NCBI GenBank assembly: GCA_021463145.1 | Contig: JAJTWZ010000002.1 | Coordinates: 124,001-188,000 of the forward strand | Direction of reading: 5' to 3' | DNA: 64,000 nt | Source: Blastocatellia bacterium | Lineage (GTDB): Bacteria > Acidobacteriota > Blastocatellia > UBA7656 > JADIYM01 | Part shown: piece after piece, positions 53,685 to 64,000 of the stretch | Numbering within the stretch: position 1 is the first letter of the stretch | Layout: every line of letters begins with the position of its first letter | Translations under genes and position numbers: made by a program | Notes under the pieces: generated by a model | Database searches by the model: none | Told to the model about the DNA's origin: nothing | What the model saw: the letters and a program-made list of their open reading frames with translations, nothing else

Positions 53685-55481
53685 ATGACTCTCGAGATCG
53701 CCTACGTCCTCATCCTCTTTCTGCTCGCGCTCGCGCTGTTCGCGACCGAGGTTTTCGCCGTCGACGTCGTAGGCCTCCTCGTGCTGCTCGCCCTCGTCGT
53801 GCCGGGCGCGTTCGGTTTGAAGATCCTGACGCCGAGCGAAGCCCTCGGCGCGTTCGGCGACGAAACCGTGCTGCTGCTCATCGCCGACTTCATGCTCACG
53901 ACTGGCCTGATCCGCACCGGAATCACGGCCGAAATCGGCAACCAGATCTATCGAGTCGGATCGCAGCGGCCCTGGACCGTCGTGCCGCTGCTGCTCGGCG
54001 TCGCTGCGGCCATCTCGTTCTGGATCTCGAACACGGTGACGATGGCCGTCTTTCTGCCCATCGCCGTCGGCATCTCGCAGCGGATGAAGATCAGCCCGTC
54101 GCGGGTCCTGATGCCTCTCGCCTTTTCGATCATTCTGGGCGGCACGGTCACGCTCATCGGGACGTCGACGAACCTCGTCATTTCGGGACGGCTTTCCGAA
54201 TATGGCCAGGCTCCGATCTCTCTGTTCGAAATGACGCCGGTGGGAATCGTGCTCACGATCGCGGGACTTCTCTACGTCTTCACCCTGGGTCGCAGGATCA
54301 TTCCCGAGCGGCACAAAGGCGGCGAGCTCACTTCCGACTACAAGATGCGCGAGTACCTCTGCGAACTCCTGATACTCGAAAACTCGGCGCTCGTGGGACG
54401 AGCCGTGCGGGACGCGAGAATCGGCGAGAAGCTCGACCTGAACATCCTCGGCATTATCCGCGACAAGACGCAGACGCTTTCGCCACGGCCCGACCTCATC
54501 CTCGAGGCCGGCGACCTGATGCTCGTCGAGGGCAAGGTCGCCAACATTATGCGCATCAAGGACACATCGGGCATCGAGATCAAGCCCGACGTGAAACTGC
54601 GCGATCCGGACCTGACTTCGAAAGACGTCGAACTCGCCGAGATCACCATCGTTCCGGGTTCCTGGCTGGTCGGGCGCACGTTGAAGGAGTCCCATTTCCG
54701 GGAGCGGCAGAACCTCACCGTCCTCGCGATCAACCATCACGGCGGCGTGCGCCGTAACAAGCTGAGTATCACGAAACTCCGGGCTGGCGACGTTCTCCTG
54801 GTACAGGGCGCGCGCGAGTCGATCGGCCGTATGGCGCTCGATCGCAACAACTTCATCGTGCTCGGCGAACTGCCGTCGAACATCCTGGTACGGAAGGACC
54901 GTGCCCGTTACGCCGTGGCGATTTTCGTGCTTGTTGTCATTCTCGGCTCGTTGAAGGTCATGCCTTTCTCGATCGCGTTCGTGCTCGGGACCGTGCTGAT
55001 GTTCCTGACGGGCTGCCTGACGCCCGAGGAGGGCTACCGGGGCGTGAACTGGGAGATGATGGTTCTCATCGCCTGCATGATCGCGTTCGGCCTCGCGATG
55101 GAGAAAACGCAGGCGGCGGCGTACGTAGCCGGGATCGTGGTTTCTTACGTCAGTCCGCACGGCGTTTTCTGGGTAATGACGGCGTTTTTTGCCCTCACGG
55201 TATTCCTCACCCAGCCAATGTCGAATCAGGCGTCGGCGCTGGTCGTCTTACCAATCGCGATCAACACGGCGGTATCGATCGGTATAAACCCGCGCACGCT
55301 GATAATGGTCGTGGCGTTCGCCGCTTCGTGCTCGTTCCTGACGCCACTGGAACCGGCCTGCATCATGGCGTACGGACCGGGACGATACCGATTCCGCGAC
55401 TTCGTCGTGGCGGGGTCGGGGCTTACGCTCATCGTCTACGTGATTGTGATGACGATGGTGCCCATGATCTGGGTCCCCTGA
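53685..55481 (+). CDS. SLC13-family permease with internal TrkA-C (RCK_C) domains
   Basis: Hydrophobic halves flanking soluble 'YLCELLILENSALVGRAVRDARIGEKLDLNILGIIRDKTQTLSPRPDLILEAGDLMLVEG' and 'LAEITIVPGSWLVGRTLKESHFRERQNLTVLAINHHG'. Confidence 0.87.
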   Translation: MTLEIAYVLILFLLALALFATEVFAVDVVGLLVLLALVVPGAFGLKILTPSEALGAFGDETVLLLIADFMLTTGLIRTGITAEIGNQIYRVGSQRPWTVVPLLLGVAAAISFWISNTVTMAVFLPIAVGISQRMKISPSRVLMPLAFSIILGGTVTLIGTSTNLVISGRLSEYGQAPISLFEMTPVGIVLTIAGLLYVFTLGRRIIPERHKGGELTSDYKMREYLCELLILENSALVGRAVRDARIGEKLDLNILGIIRDKTQTLSPRPDLILEAGDLMLVEGKVANIMRIKDTSGIEIKPDVKLRDPDLTSKDVELAEITIVPGSWLVGRTLKESHFRERQNLTVLAINHHGGVRRNKLSITKLRAGDVLLVQGARESIGRMALDRNNFIVLGELPSNILVRKDRARYAVAIFVLVVILGSLKVMPFSIAFVLGTVLMFLTGCLTPEEGYRGVNWEMMVLIACMIAFGLAMEKTQAAAYVAGIVVSYVSPHGVFWVMTAFFALTVFLTQPMSNQASALVVLPIAINTAVSIGINPRTLIMVVAFAASCSFLTPLEPACIMAYGPGRYRFRDFVVAGSGLTLIVYVIVMTMVPMIWVP

Positions 55482-55491
55482 GGCGTAAGAC

Positions 55492-56001
55492 TTGGAGCGC
55501 ATCATTCCATGGATTGGGGCAGTCGTTACCGTCGCAGGCTGCGTCGGGCTCGTCTGGATATACGCTACGCAGCCTCGGTCCATCTCCGAACTGCGAACCA
55601 ACGCGGCCGTGCAGGCCAATCTCTACGAGATCGACCGGACACAGTTCGATCTCGGGCGCGCAGCCTTCCGTGAAGGTCAGTTCCGCATCGCGATCGACCG
55701 GTTTGCCCGCGCCGACGCCGCATCGCGCGACCCGCAGTCGCAGTTCCTGATCGCGGCGTCCCATTACGAACTCGGCCGGGGCCACGTCTACGACGACGAC
55801 ACGGAGTTCGCCGCCGCGCTGGCGGCAATTGACCGGTGTCTCGCCAACTCGCCGAACAGGACTTTCACGATGGTTGATCCGACGCTCAACCTGCCGTTCA
55901 CGTCGGCGGAGCGGCTTCGCGAGCGCCTGCGCGAAGGTCTGACTTCAACTGCTGGCGACCTGAACCCGTTCGGAGGCAGCGGAGAGGAGCACTCGAGATG
56001 A
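55492..56001 (+). CDS. Membrane-anchored TPR-like protein
   Basis: TTG start, N-terminal TM helix, 'FDLGRAAFREGQFRIAIDRFARADAASRDPQSQFLIAASHYELGRG'. Confidence 0.55.
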   Translation: MERIIPWIGAVVTVAGCVGLVWIYATQPRSISELRTNAAVQANLYEIDRTQFDLGRAAFREGQFRIAIDRFARADAASRDPQSQFLIAASHYELGRGHVYDDDTEFAAALAAIDRCLANSPNRTFTMVDPTLNLPFTSAERLRERLREGLTSTAGDLNPFGGSGEEHSR

Positions 56002-56771
56002 GCGCCCTGCTCTGGCGTCACATCGGGTTGCCGGCCGTGTTTCTCACTGTTGCCCTGTTCGGCGGGTTTCGGTTCGCTGCGCTCGATCACGCGCTGCGCT
56101 TCGTACCGCCGCCGCTCACTACGCTCCTGCTCGCTTCGGCGGTGTTGCTGCTGTTCGGCCGATCCGGGCTTTTGAACGTCGGACGCGACTGGATCGGTCC
56201 GGATCGAACACCCGAAGTGAACCTTTCGAACGGGCTGACGCTTCTCACGCTTTTCGCTGCCACGGTGCAGGTATTCAATGCCGTGATGCCGGAGGATCCG
56301 CTCTTCTTCGCGGTATTTGCCGTCGTCTTCGCGCTCGCGCTCTGGAACTCGCTGCTTGCGACAATCCTTCCGCGCCGCCTCGTCGTGAGCATCGGAGGAC
56401 TGCTGCTCGCGGCTTTCGTGGTGAAGTACCTGCTGCTCGCATCTCTGTTCGAGCCAACGGACTCGGTCACGAAGTCGATAGTTCAGTCGGTGCTTCGCGG
56501 CGTGACGCTCGGAGGATTGGAGAGCGAGGCGTACGCGCGCGAGACCGGCTACGTGGCGTTCGGCTGTATCGCGTTGTATTTGATCGGGCTGTGGACGTCG
56601 TCGCCAGTCACTGACCCGCGCGAAGACCGGCTTGCTGCCTTACTGGCGCGTCCCGAAGCGTTGTCCGAGGAACAGCGGCAGCGACTGCTCGACGTGCTCG
56701 TGCCGCGCGAACTCGGCGAGGCCGGTGTCGCCGGGGCGGTGGATGCCGAGGAGGAGGGCGTGTCGCGATGA
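55998..56771 (+). CDS. Hypothetical multi-spanning membrane protein
   Basis: 257 aa, several hydrophobic segments; ATGA overlaps at both ends. Confidence 0.6.
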
Positions 56772-57214
56772 GGGCCGTCGTGCAGCGGGTCTCGCGCGCC
56801 GAGGTGCGCGTCGATGGCGAGGTGACGGGACGGATTGGGCGCGGACTTGTCGTACTGCTCGGCGTGGGTCGCGACGACGGTGAAGCGGAAGCCAGGTGGT
56901 TGCTCGAGAAGATCGCCGGGCTGCGGATTTTTGCCGACCGGGAGGGCAGGATGAACCTCGGTCTGGAGGACGTCGGCGGCGGATTGCTGGTCGTCTCGCA
57001 GTTCACCTTGTACGGCGACACGCGAAAGGGTCGCCGGCCGTCGTTCATAGATGCGGCGCCGCCCGAGCGGGCAGCGGCGCTTTACGATCGTTTCGTCGCG
57101 ATGGCGCGCGAGCGGGGCCTCGATGTGGGTACCGGCGTTTTTCAGGCGATGATGGACGTGGAACTCGTAAACGATGGTCCGGTGACGCTGATCGTCGAGA
57201 CGCCAGCGGCGTAA
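56768..57214 (+). CDS. dtd: D-aminoacyl-tRNA deacylase
   Basis: '[37 protein letters not shown]', '[22 protein letters not shown]', '[18 protein letters not shown]'. Confidence 0.95.
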
Positions 57215-57259
57215 GGCGCGGATGGGGAAGCCGCTCCCGGCCAACCCGTTGTCAATCCG

Positions 57260-57287
57260 TTGCCAATCCTGTCGCGACATCTATAAT
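57260..57287 (+). promoter_or_regulatory. Sigma70-like promoter (TTGCCA-N16-TATAAT)
   Basis: TTGCCA 57260-57265, TATAAT 57282-57287, upstream of the PP2C phosphatase gene. Confidence 0.5.
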
Positions 57288-57345
57288 GTGCGCACACGTC
57301 GGTGACGCCAGTCACTGGTCATACAGATTCGGCAGGAGTCCTCGA

Positions 57346-58416
57346 TTGGACGGCACACCCAAGTTATCCAGGGTCAAGGTGGCCCTGTCGGGTCTCTCGC
57401 ACGTCGGCTCGGTGCGGACGAACAACGAGGATCGATTCCTTATCGCCGATATCACGACCGGTGCCGAGATTCAGGGACAGGCGCTCGACGGCCACGTCCT
57501 CACCGATCGCGGCACGCTGCTCGTCGTCTCCGACGGAATGGGTGGAGCGGAAGCCGGCGAAGTCGCGAGCCGTATCGTCGTCGAGAGCCTGCGAGACGGG
57601 CTTGTCCAGGCGCCTCCGTTCGTCGTTGCCAAGGACGCCCTGCGCGGCGTCGTGGAGCAGGTGAACCTCGAGATCCACAACGAGGCGATGACGAATCCGT
57701 CGTGCAAGGGCATGGGCGCGACCCTTGCCGCCGCCTGGATCGTCGGCTCGGACGCATATTTCGCCCACGTCGGAGATTCGCGCGGTTACCTGCTGCGGGC
57801 CGGCCACATGCGCCAGGTCACTCGTGACCAGTCGATGGTCGAATCGCTCGTCGAGGTCGGGATGATCGACAGGTCGGCGGCCGAGAGTCATCCTCAGCGG
57901 AACGTGATTCTCCAGGCCATGGGAGCACGGCCCGAGGTCGCCGTTGCCATCGAGAGGGTCGAGCTCCGTCGCGGTGACTTCTTGTTGTTCTGCTCCGACG
58001 GACTCTCGGGCAAGGTCACGCTCGACGAGATGCGAGACGCCATCCTCACAACAGCGACTCTATCGGACGCCTGTTCCAGGCTCGTCGATCTTGCGAATGC
58101 GCGTGGCGGCGAAGACAACATTACGGTCGTCATTGCGGAGCTCGACGGCGAGGGGCTGCCGGAAACCGCGCTGAACGAGCGGATGACCCGCACGCTGAAG
58201 TCGCTGTCGGCGTTCGACTTCAAGCTGGGGGCGGGATATGCGCCGCCGTCCGCCCAGCCAACGCACTCGCTCGGCAGTGATCCTGTGGCGGATGAAGCGG
58301 CGGGGCCGAAGGTGTACCCTCCGCCAGGACACCCTGGCACGCCGGAAGCGCCACCTCAGAACGAGCTCACCCTGAACATCGGCACGTTGCCCGCCCCGAA
58401 AAAGTCGGAGGACTAA
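57346..58416 (+). CDS. PP2C-family Ser/Thr protein phosphatase (Stp1-like)
   Basis: 'GSVRTNNEDRFLI', 'LLVVSDGMGGAEAGEVAS', 'AYFAHVGDSRGYLLRAG', 'DNITVVIAEL'. Start TTG 57346 or GTG 57379. Confidence 0.88.
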   Translation: MDGTPKLSRVKVALSGLSHVGSVRTNNEDRFLIADITTGAEIQGQALDGHVLTDRGTLLVVSDGMGGAEAGEVASRIVVESLRDGLVQAPPFVVAKDALRGVVEQVNLEIHNEAMTNPSCKGMGATLAAAWIVGSDAYFAHVGDSRGYLLRAGHMRQVTRDQSMVESLVEVGMIDRSAAESHPQRNVILQAMGARPEVAVAIERVELRRGDFLLFCSDGLSGKVTLDEMRDAILTTATLSDACSRLVDLANARGGEDNITVVIAELDGEGLPETALNERMTRTLKSLSAFDFKLGAGYAPPSAQPTHSLGSDPVADEAAGPKVYPPPGHPGTPEAPPQNELTLNIGTLPAPKKSED

Positions 58417-58588
58417 CGCCGGTTCCGCCTTCTGGCGATCCCCGGCTCCCAAGGTCAGGGGCACGGCTGCCAAACTGGTCATCTGTGGGCCGGCCCCGAT
58501 GCGACGCGTAAAACTCTGGCGGGTGACTTAGTAGTTCTCCACGCGCCTGCGGCGCACCAACTCGGATGAAACGCCCTGCGGCCGCGTC

Positions 58589-58819
58589 GTCCGCGACCGC
58601 GGAGCGGTCGATGAAATAGCCGTGGGTCGCGCGCAGGCGAGCGCAGCGAGCCAAGCTGCGACCCGCGGAACCGCCGGCCATGGCGTCTCGACCGCGGAGC
58701 GGTCGCATCGTAAGCCCTAGACGCGCGCGCAAGAAGCAACCATTCCGTATTGGCCGCTGATCGACATTCGCGTGACGTCCGTTGCGATCGGGCCGTGCGA
58801 CCGCTCCGCGGTCGCGGAC
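58589..58819. repeat. 22-bp perfect inverted repeat with an internal third copy
   Basis: GTCCGCGACCGCGGAGCGGTCG (58589-58610) and CGACCGCTCCGCGGTCGCGGAC (58798-58819); CGACCGCGGAGCGGTCGC at 58689-58706. Confidence 0.8.
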
Positions 58820-59407
58820 GCTGTCACTAACCACAACACCTGACTCCGACAGGGGCTTCGTAACAGGTGGGCACCTCTTGAATGCGCGGCAGCGCCAGTT
58901 CCAAACACTTCAAGTGATCTCTCACCCGCACCCGGTCAACCGCCTGTAAAATAAAGTCGTTGACATTGCCAGGCGGTTTGGCGTATCCCTACGGGACCAG
59001 TTTCCGAACTGTGGGGTTATTCGGACACCAACCACTCACCGGCGCGAGCCGGTGGAGGTGCACGGTGAACTCAGCCAATTCAAGCTCGACCGCTCCCGTT
59101 CTTGCGCGTGTTCAACCCGTCGCCGACGGCTCCCGCGCTTCCATTTCACGACCGTCAGGATCCAGGCCGGCGCCTAAGCACGCACCTTTCGTGCAGCGCC
59201 TCGTTGCAAGGCGCCTCACGCAGGAGGCGGCGCGAGTGCGTTCCGGGCGTTGAGCGCGCTTTGCTGCTTTGGCCTCTCGAGAGGCAGGGTGGTCCGCGAC
59301 CGCGGACCCGTTTGCTTCTCGGAAGGCCAAACTCGAGGTATTTCCACCTTGACAGGAAACACCGTTGCTCCGGCTGACCTGGGGTGCAGCGTGAAGCGGT
59401 GCGGCGT

Positions 59408-59513
59408 GGAGAGCCGCTTTGGTTGTCGCTGAATCGAACGAGTTGCGCAACCTCGAACCGCCTCCTCCCTTGAAAGGGGCGCTTCACGCAACACTCCAAG
59501 GCGCTTCGCACAG
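59408..59513. repeat. Dispersed intergenic repeat, copy 3
   Basis: 'AGCCGCTTTGG...GAGTTGCGCAACCTCGAACCGCCTCC...CGCTTCACGCAACACTCCAAGGCGCTTCGCAC' parallels copy 2 at 28666-28775. Confidence 0.65.
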
Positions 59514-59533
59514 ATCTCGAGGAGAAAAGGCTC

Positions 59534-59875
59534 CTACTGCTCTCCACGCGCTACCGCCTCGCGCCACTCCGATTCGGTGACGACGCCTATCGCTTCGAGG
59601 TCAGACGCCCGGAAATCCGCCCGTCCCCACAGGAAGCTCGCCCTGTAGTACCGCACGTGGGCCTCACCCCTCGGATCCCCCATCCCGAGCAGGAACGATC
59701 CCGTCACCCAGCCCAGCCCGGTTCCCGCGCCAGCGTCCAGCGGTCGCACCAGGCTTCCAGTCGCGATCGTCTCCGCCTCCGGCTCGTGCCTGGCACACGC
59801 GGCCGCGATCCCGGCATCCGCGTAGACCGACCCGCACACGTCGCATATGTACGCCGACGTGCGCGAGTCCGCCAT
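59534..59875 (-). CDS. Small hypothetical protein with N-terminal Cys motif
   Basis: 'SAYICDVCGSVYADAGIAAACARHEPEAET' (CxxC...CxxH); 14-nt gap from the upstream GCS2 gene. Confidence 0.6.
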   Translation of the reverse strand: MADSRTSAYICDVCGSVYADAGIAAACARHEPEAETIATGSLVRPLDAGAGTGLGWVTGSFLLGMGDPRGEAHVRYYRASFLWGRADFRASDLEAIGVVTESEWREAVARGEQ

Positions 59876-59889
59876 ACCTCCAGCCAGTC

Positions 59890-61023
59890 CTACGCCTTCT
59901 GCGGGCCAGGCAGGGCCGCACCGTCGACAACGCCTTCGACAGTTTCGGCCATGATCCCGTCGACGACAGCCTTGAGGTCGCCCGTCTCCTCGAAGCGGCG
60001 CAACTGCCGGTCCGCGCTCGTGCCGTTTGCGAGGATCGTGTGCACGTACTCGATCTCCTTCCGCGAACCGAGCTCGTCGACGACGTCGTCGATGAAGTCG
60101 AGCAGCTCCAGAATCAGATCCCGCGTCGGCACTTCCTTCTGCTTCCCGAAATCGATCATCTTTCCATCCAGCCCGTAGCGCACCGCGCGCCATTTGTTCT
60201 CCTGGATGTACGCGCGACGGTAGAGCCGGAAACCCATGTTCTGGCGGTAAAGCTTGTAAAGCTTCGCGATGATCGCCTGGAAGAGCGCCGCGATCGTGAC
60301 GACCTCGTCGACCTTCGACGGCAGATCGCAGATCCGGAACTCGAGCGTCGGGAAGAACGGATGCGGACGGACGTCCCACCAGATCTTCTTCGCGTTGTCG
60401 ATGCAACCGGTCTTGATCAGCAGGTTCACGTACGAGTCGTATTCGCCGATCGAGCTGAAGTAGTCCGGAATGTCGGTCCGCGGGAACTTCTTGAAGACCT
60501 CGCAGCGGTAGCTCTTCAGACCGGTCTGGCGGCCTACCCAGAACGGCGAGCTGGTCGTCAGCGCCAGCACGTGCGGCAGGAAATACCGCGCCGCGTTCAT
60601 GAGGTGCACCGAGGCGTCGCGGTCGTCGATGCCCACGTGGACGTGCATACCGAAGATCAGAAGCGAGCGCGCGACGTACTGCATCTCCTCGATGAGCATG
60701 TAGTACCGCTCGTTCGGCGTGATCTCCGACAACTCCCAGTCCGAGAACGGATGAGTAGACGCCGCGGCGATCCGAAGCCCCTTCTTCGCCGCAAGCTCCG
60801 AGATCGTCCGCCGCAGACGGATGACGTCGGCCCGCGCTTCCTGCACGTTCGCGCAGATGCCGGTGCCGACCTCGATCATCGACTGGTGCATCTCGGGCTT
60901 CACCTGTTCCCCGAGAATCATCTGACCCTCGTCGATCATTTCGGTGATGTGCGAGCGCAGGTCTCGAGTCACCGGATCGACGATCTGAAACTCCTCCTCG
61001 ATCCCCAACGTGAAGTCAGCCAT
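59890..61023 (-). CDS. Carboxylate-amine ligase, YbdK/glutamate-cysteine ligase type 2 family
   Basis: 'FTLGIEEEFQIVDPVTRDLRSHITEMI', 'PEMHQSMIEVGTGICANVQEARADV', 'ASTHPFSDW', 'HVHVGIDDRDASV'. Confidence 0.9.
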   Translation of the reverse strand: MADFTLGIEEEFQIVDPVTRDLRSHITEMIDEGQMILGEQVKPEMHQSMIEVGTGICANVQEARADVIRLRRTISELAAKKGLRIAAASTHPFSDWELSEITPNERYYMLIEEMQYVARSLLIFGMHVHVGIDDRDASVHLMNAARYFLPHVLALTTSSPFWVGRQTGLKSYRCEVFKKFPRTDIPDYFSSIGEYDSYVNLLIKTGCIDNAKKIWWDVRPHPFFPTLEFRICDLPSKVDEVVTIAALFQAIIAKLYKLYRQNMGFRLYRRAYIQENKWRAVRYGLDGKMIDFGKQKEVPTRDLILELLDFIDDVVDELGSRKEIEYVHTILANGTSADRQLRRFEETGDLKAVVDGIMAETVEGVVDGAALPGPQKA

Positions 61024-61059
61024 TTCTGCCTCCGGTAACGTCGTCGGCGGGCGTAACTG

Positions 61060-62436
61060 CTAGCTCTTCAGAATGAACGTCGGCACCATGCCGCCCCCCG
61101 ACGTGACATTGCAGAGCGACGATGTCGAAAGCCGCGTGAAGGCGCTCCCGACCTTTCCAAAAAAGAGCACAGGGTCGAGGTCGACGAGCTGCTCGGCCAG
61201 CTCGTACCCGCCATCGTCGTCCATCGCGGGGAAGACTTCCCTGGCCGTCGGCACGCGTTCCTGCACGAGGTAGTCGCCCGCGAGCGCGGCGTCGATCGCG
61301 GCGGACCACTGGGCTTCGTCCGACTCCCATCCGATGTAGATCCCGTGCCCGCCGTAGTCGTCGTTCGGCTTGAGCACGAGCCGATCGCGGTTTTCGCGGA
61401 CGAACGTCACGAGGTCGATTTCGCGGTCGCGATAGGTCGTGCGCGTGTCCTCGGCTCGCCGCGTCCAGGGCACGTGCGCCGCGATCGCTTCGCGTTCCTC
61501 GTCCGTGAAGAGGTGGGCGTAGCGCTCGCTCGTGAGCACGCCAAAGAACATCTTCTTGTGCACGAACTTCACACGGAAGCTGTTCACCATGACGATCGAC
61601 TGCGTGGCGTAAGCGTCGTGGAGCGCCGAGAGCTCGTCGATCTTCTCGAGGAACTCGTTCGTCAGCACCCGCTTGTAGACGACGTCGATCTCGAAGTCGC
61701 CGTGCCGGAGGCGCCCGCCCTCGAAGGTCAGGTGCCGCGGATCGACGATGATCGTCGGATAGCCGTGCTGTTCGAAGTACTCCTTGAAGAGCTCGAACTC
61801 GGCCTGGGTCGGCAGCCCCTCCCAGTCGACGATCGCAATGTTCGGCGTTCCGCCGTCGGGCCGCACCTGCTTCCACACGTCCGCGAGCACTCCGAGAAGG
61901 CGGTCGCGCCCGTGCAGCGATTCCACCTCGAACTCCCGCATGAAAGCCTTCATCGCGGGTTGTTCGAGGAATATCGCTGTCGCGACGTCCGCATAGGCGA
62001 TGCCAGCCGGGCATTCGGCGTTCAACTCGACGAACGAGTAGGCCCCGGAAGTGAGGAACGAGTCGAGTCGGGCGTTCGGAGAGATGTAGTCGTATCCCGG
62101 ATCGATCTCGACGAGGCGGCGTTCGGCCTCAGTCAGCCCCAGTTCGTCCTGCAGGGCGATGTCGGCGCGAGCGGCGTTGCCGACCTTCTGAACGCACGAC
62201 CACATAGCCTCGCAGACCTTCCGGATGCGAGTCCAGTCGGACTCGACCACGAAGTGCGGACGGAGGTAAGGCGACAGCGGACGGCCCCCGAAGATGAGAT
62301 TGGCGCGCTCGAACTGGTCGCGCATGTACTCGGCGCTGCGGGCTGCGGTATCGCCGTCCGCGAGAATCGCGTGAAATCGATCGACCGCCCTCTCGAGCAG
62401 CGCCGCAGCCTGGGACCGGCCGGGTTCGGTGGCCAT
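61060..62436 (-). CDS. ATP-grasp-like protein, possibly circularly permuted
   Basis: 'SFVELNAECPAGIAYADVATAIFLE', 'NIAIVDWEGLPTQAEFELFKEYFEQHGYPTIIVDPRHLTF', 'DRLVLKPNDDYGGHGIYIGWE', 'YLVQERVP'. Confidence 0.7.
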   Translation of the reverse strand: MATEPGRSQAAALLERAVDRFHAILADGDTAARSAEYMRDQFERANLIFGGRPLSPYLRPHFVVESDWTRIRKVCEAMWSCVQKVGNAARADIALQDELGLTEAERRLVEIDPGYDYISPNARLDSFLTSGAYSFVELNAECPAGIAYADVATAIFLEQPAMKAFMREFEVESLHGRDRLLGVLADVWKQVRPDGGTPNIAIVDWEGLPTQAEFELFKEYFEQHGYPTIIVDPRHLTFEGGRLRHGDFEIDVVYKRVLTNEFLEKIDELSALHDAYATQSIVMVNSFRVKFVHKKMFFGVLTSERYAHLFTDEEREAIAAHVPWTRRAEDTRTTYRDREIDLVTFVRENRDRLVLKPNDDYGGHGIYIGWESDEAQWSAAIDAALAGDYLVQERVPTAREVFPAMDDDGGYELAEQLVDLDPVLFFGKVGSAFTRLSTSSLCNVTSGGGMVPTFILKS

Positions 62437-62439
62437 GAC

Positions 62440-63378
62440 CTACTCCCCTTTTCCGACGACACGCATGTTCAGGAACTCGCTCCAGCGAAGCTCGCCGATC
62501 GACGACTTGCCCTCCTGGGCAGTGCGAATTGCCAGGTCCGCCACCTTCTCGACCATCCACTTGAAGTAGACGGATCCGACCGACCACCAGTCGGCATCTG
62601 GCGCCGGGTTCATGTAGTCGATCGCATACGGCACGCCGTCCTTGATCGCGAACTCGACGGTGTTGATGTCGTAGCCGAGGGCTTCGCAGATCGCAATCGC
62701 TTCACTGCAGCAGCGGTCGTGGACGTCCGGCTCGAGGTAGTCCGGGACGACGAGGTAACGCTGGTGGATCGGATCGTACGGCATTGGCCACACGTCCTTC
62801 TTGCCGATCGTGTACGTGCGGACGTAATGGTCGAACGCGACGTACTCCTGCAGCACCATGCAGTCGGTTCCGCTCTCGTTGTACTTTTCGAACAGCTCTT
62901 CCCAGTTGTTGATCCGCGAGACCCCTCGCCATCCGCCGCCGTCGTAAGGCTTCATGAAAGCGGGAAAACCAATGTGGTCCATGATCTCTTCCCAGTCGAG
63001 CGGGTACTTGAGGTTCCGCAGCGACTCGGAGACGACGCCTTCCTTGTAATCCTTCTGGGGAAGCAGCACGGTCCGCGGCACGGCGATGCCCATGTCGGTC
63101 GCCAGCGCGTAGTTGAAGAACTTGTCGTCGGCGGTCCACCAGAACGGATTGTTGATGACGATCGTGCCGGCGAGCGTCGCATTCTTCAGGTAGGCGCGGT
63201 AGAACGGCACTTCGTGCGAGATGCGGTCGATGATGACGGCGTATTCGCACGGCTCGGCCATCTGGACGCCGCCAAGGCGGATGTACTCGGCCGTGATACC
63301 CGCATTTCGCGAGTTGATCTCATTGATGAGCGCCGGCGGGAACGTGGCCTCGCGGCCGACGAGGACTCCGATCTTCAT
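62440..63378 (-). CDS. ATP-grasp ligase (RimK/D-Ala-D-Ala-ligase-like fold)
   Basis: 'MKIGVLVGREATFPPALINEIN', 'GFPAFMKPYDGGGWRGVSRINNWEELFEKY', 'MVLQEYVAFDHYVRTYTIG', 'VEFAIKDGVPYAIDYMNPAPDAD'. Confidence 0.85.
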   Translation of the reverse strand: MKIGVLVGREATFPPALINEINSRNAGITAEYIRLGGVQMAEPCEYAVIIDRISHEVPFYRAYLKNATLAGTIVINNPFWWTADDKFFNYALATDMGIAVPRTVLLPQKDYKEGVVSESLRNLKYPLDWEEIMDHIGFPAFMKPYDGGGWRGVSRINNWEELFEKYNESGTDCMVLQEYVAFDHYVRTYTIGKKDVWPMPYDPIHQRYLVVPDYLEPDVHDRCCSEAIAICEALGYDINTVEFAIKDGVPYAIDYMNPAPDADWWSVGSVYFKWMVEKVADLAIRTAQEGKSSIGELRWSEFLNMRVVGKGE

Positions 63379-63596
63379 ACGGGATGGGCTCCTTGCAACG
63401 AGGTGATTGACGAGACGGGGAAAAGCGTGCGGATTCTAGCCAAGTGGAAACGGAGAGGGCAACGCGGATTTGGCCGCTTCGAAGGATCGTGCCGGTCACC
63501 GGTTCCGGGCTGTCGGATGCGACCTTGCCCTTCGAGTCCGCAGCGTCCTGCGCCGGACGGTCGGAGGTCGCGCTTGATTGTGGCAGACTGCCGCGC

Positions 63597-64000
63597 GTGA
63601 CGTCCCTTCCGCCAGTTGTTCCCGATCGTCCCGTGGACCGTCTGCTCTGGCCGTTTCGCGAGTTCGCGCGGCTGCAAGTCTCGGGCGGGATCGTGCTCCT
63701 TACCTGCGCGGTGATAGCGATCGCGTGGGCGAACTCGCCATGGTCGGCCGGTTACGAAGCACTCTGGCGAGTGAAGCTGTCGGTAGGACTCGGCGGGCAC
63801 GTGCTCGAAGAATCGCTGCTTCACTGGATCAACGACGGGCTGATGGCGGTCTTCTTCTTCGTCGTAGGACTCGAGATCAAGCGCGAAGTCCTCGCCGGCG
63901 AGCTTGCGTCACCCCGTCAGGCGGCGCTGCCCATCGCCGCCGCGATCGGCGGGATGGCCGTTCCGGCACTCATCTACACCTCTTTTGCTCTCGGAACGCC
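63597..64000 (+). CDS. nhaA: Na+/H+ antiporter NhaA (5' part, truncated by window end)
   Basis: Translation from GTG 63597: VTSLPPVVPDRPVDRLLWPFREFARLQVSGGIVLLTCAVIAIAWANSPWS...LLHWINDGLMAVFFFVVGLEIKREVLAGELASPRQAALPIAAAIGGMAVPALIY. Confidence 0.93.
   Translation, partial: MTSLPPVVPDRPVDRLLWPFREFARLQVSGGIVLLTCAVIAIAWANSPWSAGYEALWRVKLSVGLGGHVLEESLLHWINDGLMAVFFFVVGLEIKREVLAGELASPRQAALPIAAAIGGMAVPALIYTSFALGT

Follow-up and report, generated by a model that had tools for sequence, protein, structure and literature searches.

Locus Organization

The DNA analyzed here is a 64,000-nucleotide stretch (the window) of the 5.28-Mb draft genome of a Blastocatellia bacterium, on contig G000:C86. Its subject is a minus-strand cassette of four genes, P1 to P4, the first three of which are predicted to encode ATP-dependent ligases (Table 1). 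P1 and P3 are co-inherited, and the gene set, P4 excepted, occurs together far beyond chance. The four open reading frames, their order, their strand, and the gaps of 3, 36, and 14 nt between them were all recovered as the original prediction, made from the sequence of the window, had given them. The closest homologues in named records come from Blastocatellia/Acidobacteriota.

Table 1. Features of the ligase cassette, in window coordinates
Feature	Coordinates	Strand	Description
P1	62440..63378	-	312 aa; predicted ATP-grasp ligase with a Ddl/LysX/RimK fold; its own unnamed family
P2	61060..62436	-	458 aa; predicted circularly permuted ATP-grasp ligase, glutathione-synthetase/glutathionylspermidine-synthetase fold
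P3	59890..61023	-	377 aa; GCS2/YbdK-type carboxylate-amine ligase
P4	59534..59875	-	113 aa; CxxC...CxxH orphan; probably a passenger outside the conserved module
Ribosome-binding-site-like sequence	63386..63394	-	CAAGGAGCC; precedes the P1 ATG

A third-position G+C content of 0.86–0.88 in P1 to P3 is a strong coding signal, and the Shine–Dalgarno sequences are good. The coding signal of P4 is weaker and in frame (score 0.09 versus -0.28 to -0.69 in the five other frames), and its Shine–Dalgarno sequence, GGAGGT, directly abuts the ATG. A scan for promoters and terminators gave no signal exceeding that of shuffled sequences, and no RNA elements were detected in positions 55000-64000 of the window.

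Three Predicted Ligases

Neither P1 nor P2 reaches any curated cut-off, so the class of both was judged by structure prediction. P1 exceeds the threshold of no curated family model in Pfam or NCBIfam, falling below it both with TIGR00768 (2e-8, 33.9 bits against a cut-off of 143.4) and with TIGR02144 (27.3 bits against 275.6). The best Foldseek matches of its AlphaFold model (predicted local distance difference test, pLDDT, 90) are D-Ala-D-Ala ligase (Ddl; 3n8d, 7.5e-14), ArgX/LysX, and RimK. Residues K143, R187, E242, D254, and N257 are invariant among 56 homologues. In a profile alignment with Ddl 3r23, E242, D254, and N257 fall on the metal-binding positions of Ddl, a role established for the family, with D-x-x-N in place of E-x-N. 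P1 is, by its predicted structure, a canonical ATP-grasp ligase.

P2 scores 2.6e-5 and 23.8 bits against Pfam CP_ATPgrasp_2, under the gathering score of 32, which makes it a relative rather than a member of that family. Its model (pLDDT 93.8) matches human glutathione synthetase (GSS) at 3.8e-17, as well as 3n6x, GspS, YgiC/YjfC, and Cp1B, and the 50 top matches in the PDB consist of these proteins together with GSS-like proteins and trypanothione synthetase. In profile comparison, P2 matches 3n6x, annotated as a putative glutathionylspermidine synthase, at 2e-9. Residues R123, D125, E137, N139, and K356 are invariant among 27 homologues. The R-x-D...E-x-N pattern in P2 is equated by motif pattern and fold with residues R139, D141, E163, and N165 of the Cp1B ligase, whose importance was shown by mutation (PMC12568646); the sequence alignment to Cp1B stops short of this region. 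Modeling thus identifies P2 as a circularly permuted ATP-grasp ligase. The claim of two distinct ATP-grasp proteins, for which the Pfam scores are sub-threshold, is settled in its favor by the two predicted structures.

The assignment of P3 to the GCS2/YbdK ligases was confirmed by family models. P3 matches PF04107 (GCS2) over its full length at 3e-63 (214 bits, cut-off 21) and scores 563 bits against NCBIfam NF010039, which has a curated cut-off of 371. Its kin of known structure is YbdK (1r8g, 2e-54). The GhExE motif, the Mg/ATP active-site signature of GCS2/YbdK ligases (PMC2588565), is present as G7-I8-E9-E10-E11, of which G7, E9, E10, and E11 are invariant among 25 homologues. The predicted catalytic residues are invariant in the families of all three enzymes.

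Co-Inheritance of the Ligase Genes

A survey of co-occurrence, one of the checks proposed with the original prediction, finds P1 to P3 kept together across phyla. Homologous loci were retrieved by P1 alone, and P3 was counted as linked when it lay on the same strand within 3 kb of P1 (<=3 kb). By this measure, P3 is linked to P1 in 69 of the 80 loci. The commonest arrangement (38 of 80, mainly in Terriglobia) runs esterase, P1, P3, M29 peptidase, and a second circularly permuted ATP-grasp-like protein; others are P1-P2-P3 (5 loci) and P3-P1-P2-M29, in some cases joined by an esterase on the opposite strand (7 loci). Profile comparison of the second ATP-grasp-like protein with P2 is suggestive only (E 1e-4, probability 57%), and this divergent gene may replace P2 in Terriglobia.

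Presence and absence were followed in two phyla. The Acidobacteriota sample comprised 39 genomes, the source and 38 relatives, with P1 in 33, P3 in 31, a strong P2 match in 31, and a strong match to the esterase in 32. Among the 33 carriers of P1, P3 is found in 31, P2 in 31, and the esterase in 32, and all three are absent from the six genomes that lack P1 (Fisher's exact test, 9e-6 for P1 with P3 and 2e-6 for P1 with the esterase). For the 101 Chloroflexota genomes, the cut-offs (E<1e-100 for P1 and E<1e-150 for a P3 orthologue) were set by us where a gap in the scores separates orthologues from the rest of the family. P1 occurs in 25 of these genomes and the P3 orthologue in 23, every one of which also carries P1 (hypergeometric P ~1e-20, uncorrected for kinship). 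The two genes are adjacent in 17 of these 23, often as P1-P2-P3 with the esterase. Moreover, P3 is present in all 14 P1-bearing genomes chosen to span Acidobacteriota, Chloroflexota, Armatimonadota, Chlorobiota, Bacteroidota, and a Caldithrix-like record.

Two side observations concern the breadth and setting of the family. A Chloroflexota locus (L199:5843-8274) holds an adjacent, divergent P1-P3 pair at 31% and 39% identity, which suggests an older, wider family. In loci from Armatimonadota and Chlorobiota (L045:4889-8361 and L049:7992-11795), a flotillin-like FloA gene follows P1-P3.

Recurring Partners and the Orphan Neighbor

The recurring fourth and fifth partners of the ligases are a PF00756 esterase and an M29-like peptidase rather than P4. 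The esterase, which has a conserved G-x-S-x-G elbow, lies near P1 in 52 of the 80 loci, and the M29-like peptidase, a partner in Acidobacteriota, in 55. Neither is in the window; the source genome has its PF00756 esterase at C2:29946-30659, unlinked to the cassette.

P4 had been put forward as a possible metal-binding accessory of the cassette, an idea that the comparative data do not support. No counterpart occurs in any of the 80 P1 loci, searches of the 39 Acidobacteriota genomes returned only chance-level matches, with no convincing homologue in the 38 relatives, and no small Cys-rich open reading frame was found to recur beside other cassettes. P4 also has no family in Pfam, NCBIfam, PHROGs, or PADLOC. 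A role as a conserved accessory was rejected on these grounds, and P4 is probably a passenger rather than a member of the conserved set.

Between P4 and a PP2C phosphatase gene lies about 1.1 kb (58417-59533) with no clear gene and with a G+C-rich inverted repeat at 59291-59308. A phage or defense origin was considered for the cassette and rejected, as no PHROGs or PADLOC family was matched and P1 has no match in phage or plasmid records.

A Proposed Assembly Pathway and Its Alternatives

The reading that we favor, with moderate confidence, is that P1, P2, and P3 form an ATP-dependent assembly path, independent of nonribosomal peptide synthetases, for a small gamma-glutamyl-type peptide or peptide-amine conjugate. 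It is built on the gene set, the predicted folds, the conserved catalytic residues, and the co-inheritance described above, and the chemistry suggested here is that of the enzyme families. P3 would most likely activate glutamate, or an acid resembling it, at the gamma-carboxylate and couple that group to an amine. P1, being Ddl/LysX-like, and P2, which is GSS/GspS/YgiC-like, would then each convert a carboxylate to an acyl phosphate and attach one more amino acid or amine. In other lineages, the ligase-adjacent PF00756 esterase and M29-type peptidase probably mature or recycle the product. The stepwise synthesis of a peptide or conjugate envisaged at the outset keeps its core in the three amide-forming ligases, their conserved catalytic residues, and their co-inheritance across phyla, while the part given to P4 drops out.

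Several points weigh against this reading. GCS2 and ATP-grasp families accept many substrates. Five of the six Acidobacteriota genomes without P1 belong to one family, so few independent losses lie behind the counts in that phylum; the Chloroflexota provide the better test of co-inheritance. Of the 31 Acidobacteriota genomes with both P1 and P3, 14 have the two genes at separate locations, and the set is thus not always one operon. The original claim of a probable single operon holds for an operon-like set of three ligases, with P4 outside it and this separation as a further reservation. Scattering in related genomes, which was named from the start as a sign against a shared pathway, is thus real as to position, but both genes are still retained where they are not neighbors. 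Finally, paralogous P1-P2 pairs occur in the source and other genomes with no GCS2 gene in view, which means that P1-P2 may be a unit with a function of its own or may have more than one use.

The separation of P1 from P3 and the P1-P2 paralogues without GCS2 would also be expected if these were separate housekeeping ligases that cluster without a common product. Against this, the genes are jointly present or absent in the 101 Chloroflexota genomes and stand next to each other in several phyla, and we regard it as very improbable. A different division of labor is a peptide-polyamine conjugate, a specific form of the favored assembly path in which P2 would cap a peptide made by P3 and P1 with a polyamine and the hydrolases would reverse the step. 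The structural matches of P2 to GspS and to YgiC/YjfC, which are peptidylpolyamine synthetases (PMC12568646), are consistent with such a product, as is its profile match to 3n6x. However, GSS structures, whose acceptors are amino acids, outscore GspS as matches of P2, and no polyamine gene occurs among the scanned cassette neighbors, which makes this specific form rather unlikely.

The GCS2 membership of P3, with its YbdK structural kin, and the rank of eukaryotic glutathione synthetase as the best structural match of P2 could instead indicate a glutathione-like low-molecular-weight thiol. P3 would make gamma-Glu-Cys or an analogue, the GSS-fold P2 would extend it to a tripeptide, and P1 would add a residue. 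GCS2 and GSS-fold enzymes that might serve a glutathione route are encoded, but so is the bacillithiol gene bshC, which occurs in 36 of the 39 Acidobacteriota genomes, including the source and some that lack the cassette. A role in making the main thiol is less likely because bshC is present independently of the cassette, and the non-canonical thiol among the products first proposed is weakened accordingly. A tripeptide thiol also needs one ligase fewer than the three present, and the GSS fold is common to polyamine ligases and Cp1B, which make products other than thiols; in all, a thiol seems improbable. Hardly credible is an amino-group-carrier or protein-tagging system, in which P4 would be a zinc-bound, LysW-like carrier whose C terminus is modified by the ligases, in the way that LysX acts on LysW or RimK/PafA on proteins. 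The structural resemblance of P1 to LysX/ArgX and RimK and the features of P4, which is small, carries CxxC...CxxH, and ends in Gly-Glu-Gln, would suit a carrier, but P4 fits no family model, is missing from all 80 loci, and has no recurring Cys-rich substitute beside other cassettes.

Paralogues and Distant Relatives

A second P1-P2 pair is present in the source genome (G000:C126:25560-27857, L101), with a P1 that is 52% identical and a divergent erythromycin-esterase-family gene alongside; the C126 contig stops ~200 nt past P2. A third P2-type ligase (G000:C41:4750-6300, L133), with ~44% identity to the family, has no adjacent P1 or GCS2 gene, and its neighbor gives a weak DUF3828 match. Farther afield, Selenomonas ruminantium plasmid pSRC2 (L205, NC_017076.1 13664-24959) carries a row of three genes, one of the glutamate-cysteine-ligase family, one for a MATE exporter, and one for a distant relative of P2 at 24% identity; an alpha/beta hydrolase lies ~1.6 kb beyond them. 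In the Selenomonas case, this arrangement fits a small exported product.

Significance and Comparison with Known Systems

Several phyla, made up mostly of soil bacteria, have retained the three ligases together with as many as two hydrolases, and no assigned product was found. This retention suggests a common metabolite, such as a redox buffer, an osmolyte, a storage compound, or a signal, that metabolomics has missed. It is possible, if still tentative, that P1, P2, P3, the PF00756 esterase, and the M29-like peptidase constitute an undescribed pathway spanning Acidobacteriota, Chloroflexota, and no fewer than three further phyla, and that the product it makes and recycles is a widespread small peptide metabolite new to chemistry.

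Enzymes of these kinds are already known, and the searchable literature yielded no report of them in a fixed association with this P1 family. No description of the P1-P2-P3 combination came from a search that left Iyer et al. 2009 outside its reach, so an earlier prediction is possible, and no exact match to a characterized pathway emerged to displace the original prediction. The work of Iyer et al. reportedly predicted amidoligase operons in which ATP-grasp and GS-fold ligases occur with peptidases in conserved neighborhoods.

Set against D-Ala-D-Ala ligase, LysX/ArgX, and RimK, P1 appears to share the fold, the ATP-binding lysine, the glycine loop, and the metal-binding E...D..N set, but it has D-x-x-N where E-x-N is usual and passes the cut-off of none of these families. 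Unlike LysX with LysW, it has no conserved LysW-like carrier beside it. P2 shares its predicted fold and the R-x-D...E-x-N and KP active-site pattern with GspS, YgiC/YjfC, eukaryotic GSS, and fungal Cp1B, yet it is only 9-17% identical in structural alignment to any solved member, lacks the amidase domain, and forms a separate family sited beside P1 and GCS2. P3 is the most conventional of the three in its full-length match to the GCS2/YbdK ligases (PF04107, NF010039; 1r8g), its GhExE signature, and its passing of the curated cut-off. What sets it apart is that its branch, NF010039, is tied to P1 and that no member of this branch with an established physiological substrate was found.

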